Positions 4,063 through 5,924 of a DNA stretch of 5,924 nt are shown in pieces. This stretch comes from a bacterium (lineage in GTDB: Bacteria; CG2-30-53-67; CG2-30-70-394). The position numbers and the translations under genes were made by a program. The stretch is from assembly GCA_024278555.1 (NCBI GenBank), contig JAJRSX010000090.1, positions 1-5,924 of the forward strand. The letters are read 5' to 3'. The notes beneath the pieces were generated by a model that saw only the letters and a list, made by a program, of their open reading frames with translations, had not been told where the DNA came from and ran no database searches. Within the stretch, counting starts at the first letter, position 1. The number at the start of each line of letters is the position of its first letter.

Positions 4063-4509
4063 ATGGCCGACCCCCTGCGCATCCTCTTTCTCTGTACCGG
4101 CAATAGCTGCCGCTCGCAGATGGCCGAGGGGTGGGCACGCCACCTCGGCGGCGACCGGGTCGAGGTCGCCTCGGCGGGGATCGAGACCCACGGCCTCAAC
4201 CCGCGGGCGGTGGCGGTGATGGCCGAGGCGGGGGTGGACATCGCCCCCCACCACTCCACCCGCCTCACCCCGGCGATGGTGGCCGACGCCGACCTGGTGG
4301 TCACCGTCTGCGGCCACGCGGACGCCCACTGCCCCGCCCTACCCCCGGAGGTGGAGAAGCGCCACTGGCCCCTGGACGACCCGGCCCGGGCGACCGGCGA
4401 CGAGGCCACCCTGATGGCCACCTTCCGCGCCAGCCGCGATGCCATCCGCGCGCGGGTGGAGGCGCTCTTGACGGAGCTCGACCCGACCCATGGAGTCGGT
4501 AATGAGTAG
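4063..4509 (+). CDS. arsC: ArsC, arsenate reductase of the thioredoxin-linked (LMW-phosphatase fold) type
   Basis: 148 residues. The P-loop C11-T-G-N-S-C-R17-S (CX5R) binds arsenate and C11 is the nucleophile. The pair C83 and C90 (CX6C in TVCGHADAHC) matches the relay cysteines C82/C89 of S. aureus ArsC, and WPLDDP (102-107) carries the catalytic Asp-Pro. These place it in the thioredoxin-dependent class, not the glutaredoxin class of E. coli plasmid R773. It reduces arsenate to arsenite in the cytoplasm, passing the disulfide from C11/C83 to C83/C90 and then to thioredoxin. GGAAG (4052-4056), six bases upstream of the ATG, is the ribosome site. It lies between arsR and acr3, whose start overlaps its end, so reduction and export are produced together. 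A plain low-molecular-weight tyrosine phosphatase is excluded by the relay cysteines and context. Confidence 0.96.
   Translation: MADPLRILFLCTGNSCRSQMAEGWARHLGGDRVEVASAGIETHGLNPRAVAVMAEAGVDIAPHHSTRLTPAMVADADLVVTVCGHADAHCPALPPEVEKRHWPLDDPARATGDEATLMATFRASRDAIRARVEALLTELDPTHGVGNE
4492..4495 (+). promoter_or_regulatory. Ribosome binding site deciding the acr3 start
   Basis: GGAG at 4492-4495 is six bases before the ATG at 4502. The upstream in-frame ATG at 4490 overlaps this GGAG and has no purine-rich site of its own. This supports 4502 as the start, with an 8-nt overlap of the arsC stop and probable translational coupling. Confidence 0.6.
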
Positions 4510-5635
4510 TCGATGCGCGACGGCCGCCCGGCGGCCGGCGAAGGCGGCGATGTCGCTCTTCGAGCGCTACCTCACCCTCTGGGTCTTCCTCTGCATCGGC
4601 GCCGGCATCGCCCTCGGCCAGGTGGTCCCCGCCCCCTTCCGCCTCCTCGGGCGGCTGGAGGTGGCGCGGGTGAACCTGCCGGTGGCCCTGCTCATCTGGC
4701 TGATGATCGTCCCGATGCTCCTGAAGATCGACTTCGCGGCCCTCCACCGGGTCAAGGCCCACTGGCGCGGCGTCGCGGTGACGCTGTTCATCAACTGGGG
4801 GGTGAAGCCCTTTTCCATGGCGCTTCTCGGGTGGATCTTCATCCGCCACCTCTTCGCGCCGTGGCTTCCCGCCGCGCAGGTCGACAGCTACATCGCCGGC
4901 CTCATCCTCCTGGCGGCGGCGCCGTGCACGGCGATGGTCTTTGTCTGGTCCAACCTCTCCGACGGCGAGCCCCACTTCACCCTCTCGCAGGTGGCCCTGA
5001 ACGACCTGATCATGGTCTTCGCCTTCGCCCCGATCGTCGGCCTGCTCCTCGGCCTCTCGTCGATCCACGTGCCGTGGGCGACGCTCTTCTTGTCGGTCGT
5101 CCTCTACATCGTCCTCCCGGTCGGCTTCAGCCACGCCTGGCGCGAGCGGCTCCTGACATCCGGCGGCCAGGCCCGCCTCGACGCCACCCTGGCGCGCCTG
5201 GGGCCGATCTCCCTGGTGGCGCTGCTGGCCACCCTGATCCTCCTCTTCGCCTTCCAGGGCGAGCAGATCCTCGCCCAGCCCCTGGTCATCGGCCTGCTGG
5301 CGATCCCGATCATCATCCAGGTCTATTTCAACTCCACCCTCGCCTACCTCCTCAACCGGTGGGTGGGCTCCGCCCACTCCGTCGCCGCGCCGTCGGCCCT
5401 GATCGGGGCGAGCAACTTCTTCGAGCTGGCGGTGGCGGCGGCGATCTCCCTCTTCGGCTTCCAGTCCGTCGCCGCCCTGGCCACGGTGGTGGGGGTCCTG
5501 GTGGAGGTGCCGGTGATGCTCTCGGTGGTCCGCATCGTCACCGCCAGCCGCGGGTGGTACGAACGTGGCCGGCGTGTTGCCAGACGCGGAGCGCTGGCAA
5601 CGGAACCGATTTTTGCCGCGAATGAACGCAAATAG
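4502..5635 (+). CDS. acr3: ACR3-family arsenite efflux permease
   Basis: 377 residues from the ATG at 4502. About ten hydrophobic helices are visible, as in the BART-superfamily ACR3 carriers, which expel arsenite across the inner membrane using the proton gradient. Hallmarks: LLAAAPCTAMVFVWS, with the essential Cys (residue 142 here); VALNDLIMVFAFAPIVGLLLG; IPIIIQVYFNSTLAY; and ALIGASNFFELAVAAAIS, with the conserved Glu (residue 308). The final helix GVLVEVPVMLSVVRIV leads into SRGWYERG, which is usually about where these proteins end. Here 21 further, basic residues follow, the last ones encoded by a 10-bp repeat that also supplies the stop. Alternative starts are ATG 4490 (four residues longer) and ATG 4550, whose MSLFERYLTLW is where many homologues begin; the Ala/Arg-rich lead is poorly supported. 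It is not the unrelated ArsB antiporter. Last gene of arsR-arsC-acr3. Confidence 0.94.
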   Translation: MSSRCATAARRPAKAAMSLFERYLTLWVFLCIGAGIALGQVVPAPFRLLGRLEVARVNLPVALLIWLMIVPMLLKIDFAALHRVKAHWRGVAVTLFINWGVKPFSMALLGWIFIRHLFAPWLPAAQVDSYIAGLILLAAAPCTAMVFVWSNLSDGEPHFTLSQVALNDLIMVFAFAPIVGLLLGLSSIHVPWATLFLSVVLYIVLPVGFSHAWRERLLTSGGQARLDATLARLGPISLVALLATLILLFAFQGEQILAQPLVIGLLAIPIIIQVYFNSTLAYLLNRWVGSAHSVAAPSALIGASNFFELAVAAAISLFGFQSVAALATVVGVLVEVPVMLSVVRIVTASRGWYERGRRVARRGALATEPIFAANERK

Positions 5636-5646
5636 ACGCAAACCAA
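5617..5646. repeat. Short 10-bp tandem repeat spanning the acr3 stop codon
   Basis: Three units begin at 5617, 5627 and 5637: CGCGAATGAA, CGCAAATAGA and CGCAAACCAA. The acr3 stop TAG is at 5633-5635 inside the second unit. Base composition drops from GC-rich to AT-rich exactly here (from about 5610), suggesting that the repeat replaced or was added to the original gene end. Confidence 0.7.
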
Positions 5647-5826
5647 CTGCACGAAAAACCGCAGTCACCGGCAACAAGCCCTCTTCTGTGGTGACCCGAG
5701 CCTTCCAGACCAACACAGCTACCGGCGCCCCCGTACGATGACGCCCTCTTCACAATTCCCGATTCGAGGAGCAGCGGAAATAATGACTGGCGAGAAAGTC
5801 GATGTTCCCGAGACCTCGAGGGAGTG
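5636..5826. other. Intergenic DNA without recognised gene
   Basis: No supported coding region, RNA gene or promoter is seen between the acr3 stop and the CACGAAA array. Composition is clearly less GC-rich than in the genes to the left. GTCACC (5664-5669) and GGTGAC (5690-5695) could pair over a 20-nt loop, but no T-run follows, so no intrinsic terminator for the ars operon can be named. An ATG-initiated frame from 5738 runs into the repeat array and is judged spurious. Confidence 0.6.
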
Positions 5827-5913
5827 GGAACACGAAAGCACGAAAAGTTCAAAACACGAAAGAATTCAATCGGTTGTTTTTCGTGCTTTCCCCCTTTCGT
5901 GGTTTCGTGTTCC
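5827..5913. repeat. Mirror-symmetric array of CACGAAA units (87-bp imperfect palindrome)
   Basis: CACGAAA occurs at 5831, 5839 and 5855; its reverse complement TTTCGTG at 5879, 5895 and 5903. Start spacings are 8 and 16 on the left and 16 and 8 on the right, and every pair is centred on base 5870. The outer arms 5827-5847 and 5893-5913 match as inverted repeats at 19 of 21 positions. In a second register, 5834-5846 pairs perfectly over 13 bp with 5878-5890. The RNA or single strand could therefore fold in two alternative ways. No T-tract follows. The array lies in AT-richer DNA with no supported gene. It may be a dispersed repeat or miniature element; this cannot be tested within one window. 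Confidence 0.85.
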
Positions 5914-5924
5914 AGCGGTGTGAA

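Follow-up and report, generated by a model that had tools for sequence, protein, structure and literature searches.

A palindromic octamer array within a 197-bp mini-transposon probably mobilised by an IS1182-type transposase

The window analysed here, a stretch of 5,924 nucleotides that makes up an entire contig, carries close to its right end a symmetrical array of CACGAAA and TTTCGTG heptamers, which raises the question of what kind of genetic element, if any, the array belongs to. We find that it occupies the centre of a dispersed element 197 bp long, whose 17-bp terminal inverted repeats read GAGGAKCAGCGGAAATA. Copy number, ends, duplications and target preference, all observed here, together with an intact IS1182 element in another bacterium whose ends are nearly identical, make it very probable that the array is carried as passenger core by a mini-transposon (MITE) that an IS1182-type DDE transposase mobilises in trans, leaving a 3-bp duplication at CNC-NNN-GNG targets. 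The striking palindrome is thereby accounted for: it belongs to a mini-transposon that was active recently.

The octamer array and the element around it

The preliminary description reported six heptamers in mirror arrangement, and all six lie where it had placed them (Table 1), with spacings of 8 and 16 on the left and 16 and 8 on the right of a mirror centre at base 5870. The array is real and far above chance: the two heptamers together occur 7 times in positions 5601–5924, compared with a mean of 0.15 and a maximum of 2 in 2000 dinucleotide shuffles. Pairing extends over 19 of 21 positions in the outer 21-nt arms and over 29 of 35 (83% complementary) in the full 35-nt arms, and the fold of the array strand has z = –4.2 against shuffles. 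A second pairing register proposed at the same time, a perfect 13-bp stem between 5834–5846 and 5878–5890, is present but, at –15.4 kcal/mol, far less stable than the mirror register at –33.0 kcal/mol (RNA parameters). A search of the window against Rfam gave a tRNA at 1930–2003 as the sole match. A further octamer-type array, CCGCGAATGAACGCAAATAGACGCAAA, is located at 5616–5642 and overlaps the 3′ end of a predicted ACR3-type arsenite transporter frame (4490–5635), so that the last residues of this frame are encoded by repeat DNA.

When the window's own genome (3.06 Mb in 211 contigs) was searched with positions 5780–5924 as the query, at least 40 distinct genomic places matched, a lower bound taken from the best 40 of 67 candidates. 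Several copies are 100% identical over 97–138 bp, indicating that the element was recently active. Complete copies are 197–198 bp long and carry one 17-bp sequence at both ends, the second time inverted (GAGGAKCAGCGGAAATA...TATTTCCGCTGMTCCTC). Their alignment puts the start of the element at 5766 and its right end about 38 bp past the contig end at 5924, giving limits of about 5766–5962; those given in the preliminary description (5827–5913) were too narrow. The missing stretch of about 38 bp ends in TATTTCCGCTGATCCTC, as judged from other copies. The window thus ends inside the element, several other copies are likewise found at contig ends, and the element accounts for the assembly break at this point. 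The preliminary description had read the array as a distinct genetic element that might be a non-autonomous mobile repeat, a view that it would have given up for a sequence found only once in the genome; the view is supported by the multiple copies, sharp boundaries and terminal inverted repeats, and by the 3-bp target duplications described below.

Table 1. Features of the mini-transposon copy at the right end of the window
Feature	Position	Strand	Remarks
Presumed left target duplication (3 bp), TTC	5763–5765	+	TTC is among the duplicated triplets; right copy lies past the contig end
Mini-transposon (MITE), 159 of 197 bp present	5766–5924	+	At least 40 copies, full or partial; 197–198 bp when complete
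Left terminal inverted repeat GAGGAGCAGCGGAAATA	5766–5782	+	Boundary from aligned copies; genome-wide match count
Smaller internal inverted repeat, TGTTCCCGAGACCTCGA / TCGAGGGAGTGGGAACA	5803–5832	+	76% complementary
Left arm of octamer palindrome	5827–5861	+	CACGAAA units at 5831, 5839 and 5855
Loop between arms, 17 nt	5862–5878	+	
Right arm of octamer palindrome	5879–5913	+	TTTCGTG units at 5879, 5895 and 5903
Right subterminal segment, first part, cut at contig end	5914–5924	+	Other copies continue as GGACGACGGAACGCTCGGGGCTATTTCCGCTGATCCTC

With up to 2 mismatches allowed, the genome has 127 matches to the 17-bp end, compared with 4 for a reversed-pattern control. The end has no match in the seven further genomes of the class that includes the window's genome, and the element was unmatched in the plasmid collection. 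As expected of a MITE, the element is short and multi-copy, has no space within its 197 bp for a transposase gene, and bears the terminal inverted repeat GAGGAKCAGCGGAAATA at both ends. Certain derivatives of the element (L079 at 2001–2108, L023 and L083) have deletions or breakpoints within the palindrome and adjoin other octamer sequence, which suggests recombination or slippage at the repeats.

A transposase of the IS1182 family with the same ends

Three kinds of element in the window's own genome are bounded by the 17-bp end: the 197-bp family, another MITE-like family, and copies of an IS1182-family transposase gene shortened by deletion. Members of the second family (within the L066/L067, L068–L073 set) are 220–506 bp long, the longer ones holding an internal palindrome of CACAGAGA-type octamers, and elements of 517–529 bp with the common ends in the same set are remnants of the transposase gene. 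Pieces of two longer remnants, L098 and L099, match the IS1182 model NF033551 (E = 1.3e-29 and 1.3e-26) and PF13751 (DDE_Tnp_1_6), and both carry one common internal deletion junction. The searches of this genome yielded no complete IS; the best two pieces are internally deleted and others stop at contig ends. A search with the C-terminal piece of the transposase found no relative in the genome collection, from which the genome's own records may be missing. An origin of the MITE core as an internal deletion product of the IS was considered and rejected, because the two have only the 17-bp ends in common and no subterminal sequence. A second, different IS1182-type transposase, 28% identical to the first over 107 aa, is encoded at L171 (G000 C65:11407–12237), where GGAGTCTGTCGGACTT precedes the gene and a contig end truncates it.

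When the genome collection was scanned with the exact end, six contigs were recovered, all from one Myxococcales MAG (MAG_56), in which the end has 284 matches compared with 2 for the control. An intact 1729-bp (1.73-kb) IS is located at the start of one of these contigs, with GAGGGTCAGCGGAAATA at both ends and an uninterrupted 556-codon IS1182 frame (E = 2.4e-73; 248 bits, under the 270-bit curated cut-off), the product of which is 48% and 53% identical to the two pieces from the window's genome. Small elements in MAG_56 show 3-bp duplications in 10 of the 18 end pairs examined, a few of which overlap one another. Both the MAG_56 protein and the pieces from the window's genome match the family model, and the occurrence of an intact IS1182 element that has almost the same ends ties the 17-bp end to the IS1182 transposase family in two bacteria. 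The autonomous partner with the same ends that is expected for a MITE is represented by the deletion derivatives in the window's genome and by the intact IS of MAG_56, the ends of which are near-identical.

Published IS1182 members or MITEs have 4-bp or no duplications (PMC3281130, PMC3852290, PMC5678879), an example being the 4-bp repeat of ISPse1 (PMC3281130), so the 3-bp duplication seen in both genomes is unusual. Within this heterogeneous family, it points to a divergent branch and not to a typical member.

Target sites and insertion

Identical 3-bp flanks (TTC, TCC, TGA, AGA and others) border 19 of the 35 two-ended copies, whereas re-paired flanks gave a mean of 6.2, with 0 of 10000 re-pairings reaching 19. 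The other 16 copies are without an exact 3-bp duplication, which is absent or decayed in them. A dyad surrounds the duplication, with C at –6 in 30 and at –4 in 32 of the 35 copies, and G at +4 in 29 and at +6 in 30, giving a testable target rule of CNC-NNN-GNG with a 3-bp duplication. At L009, removal of one AAA yields an uninterrupted octamer array, ACGCAAAGGCGCAAAGG. Periodicity of 8 or 9 bp was detected in the right flanks of 16 of 35 copies compared with 4.8 expected, meaning that insertions often occur at other tandem octamer arrays. With genes predicted heuristically, 28 of the 32 own-genome insertions are intergenic, and the orientations of the genes around them are mixed.

We propose that elements sharing the 17-bp ends encode an IS1182-family DDE transposase, which would bind the terminal inverted repeats GAGGAKCAGCGGAAATA, move the 197-bp element and join it to a 3-bp staggered target within a C-N-C-NNN-G-N-G dyad. 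Joining would leave the 3-bp duplication, and the targets would be mainly intergenic, often in other tandem octamer arrays. The action of this transposase on the MITE would be in trans.

The facing octamer arms at some insertions allow a different reading, in which the IS replaces pre-existing inverted repeats in the style of IS1272, and some flanking arms are remnants of a replaced hairpin and not chance neighbours. Such arms border certain duplication-free copies (e.g., CACGAA and TTCGCG at L072, CACCGCGAAGACGCGAAGA and TTCGCGCCCTTTGCGTCTTCGCGGTG at L028), and IS1272, which is described as belonging to the IS1182 family, selects inverted repeats as targets and replaces them, leaving no target duplications (PMC5678879). 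However, strictly inverted 3-bp flanks are present in only 1 of 35 copies, compared with direct 3-bp duplications in 19, and we regard replacement as unlikely.

The palindromic core and comparison with known systems

Octamer-armed palindromes without IS1182 ends are present elsewhere in the genome, at L225 (1499–1749), L218 (1496–1752), L220 (1499–1635 and 2358–2583) and L228 (1495–1775). The palindrome at L225 consists of AACGCAAAGG(CGCAAAGG)n mirrored, that at L228 encloses a further octamer palindrome in its loop, and some variant octamers of these free-standing palindromes recur as mirror images in the other arm. Three-unit arrays of the CGCAAAG type number 49 in the genome compared with 0 in controls, and three-unit CRCGAA arrays are found in 16 of the 290 genomes searched, including a same-genus genome without the ends. 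The existence of such palindromes without ends, and of arrays elsewhere, suggests that the core of the MITE is a captured member of the genome's free-standing octamer palindromes, caught between IS ends. These observations draw attention to octamer arrays and palindromes, which are sporadic in distant genomes. A text search of papers for the octamer strings returned none, nothing matching was found under octanucleotide hairpins or 8-bp repeats, and no description of octamer arrays or octamer palindromes was found in the literature searched. We tentatively raise the possibility, which we hold to be the less probable one, that octamer-armed palindromes, built of 8-bp units that are mirrored together with some of their variants, constitute an independent, undescribed class of dispersed hairpin, beside which the IS1182-type element inserts and one of which it captured as its core. 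If this is true, the IS1182-type element and the octamer palindromes would spread together.

Could the palindrome instead be a functional structure, such as a terminator, an RNA hairpin or a protein-binding array, that is under selection and merely carried by the mobile element? Its stable fold and its mainly intergenic positions are consistent with this, as are the arms, which are complementary in all 26 aligned copies (90% mean identity over the palindrome). Compensatory changes are, however, not supported among these 26 copies (95.5% paired cells vs. 95.6% in shuffles; one both-sided change in hairpin pairs vs. 1.5 expected), although this is a weak test as the copies are young, and gene orientations at the insertions are mixed. 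Selection for such a structure seems to us improbable, and we claim no function for the hairpin, since nothing observed here speaks for one.

Spread of a REP/REPIN-like palindrome through a Y1 (RAYT) transposase, the link suggested in the preliminary description, is very improbable: the core is palindromic and the genome has four Y1_Tnp genes, but the element has DDE-type terminal inverted repeats matching those of an IS1182-family element, together with target duplications, and at the three Y1 loci inspected (of the four) the gene is not flanked by the repeat, with neither octamer arrays nor 17-bp ends nearby. Two of the three inspected loci (L248 and L250) carry GGGGTCAGG repeats. A different inverted repeat, GGGGTCAGGCTTGCAAACTTGCAAG, was observed at L009 (2932–3014), L091 (754–838), L112 (about 1890–2010) and L250 (1156); at L112, one repeat cluster lies inside a mini-transposon copy.

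The present MITE resembles REPINs and RAYT-mobilised REPs (PMC3116915, PMC2817692) in being a many-copy, dispersed, intergenic palindrome, but differs from them in its DDE-type terminal inverted repeats and duplications and in lacking a Y1 association at the three loci inspected. Insertion sequences that target REPs likewise land repeatedly in dispersed repeats (Tobes and Pareja 2006, PMC1525189), but the targets here are tandem 8/9-bp arrays and the CNC-NNN-GNG dyad, not REPs, and the transposase identified in this work is of the IS1182 type. IS1272 shares the transposase family, ends of about 16 bp and a preference for palindromic or stem-loop DNA (PMC5678879); it makes no target duplications and replaces its target inverted repeat, in contrast to the common 3-bp duplications of the present element. 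IS1182-family MITEs are known in Methanosarcina acetivorans, where ISMac2-derived elements of 160–169 bp are present in 7–14 copies (PMC3852290). Like the present element, these are short and non-autonomous, with inverted-repeat ends and an IS1182-family partner, but their inverted repeats are 25–26 bp and their duplications 4 or 0 bp (PMC3852290), compared with 17 bp and 3 bp here, with an octamer palindrome inside. The element is thus a real mobile element of a familiar kind, set apart by the 3-bp duplication, the dyad target and the octamer core.
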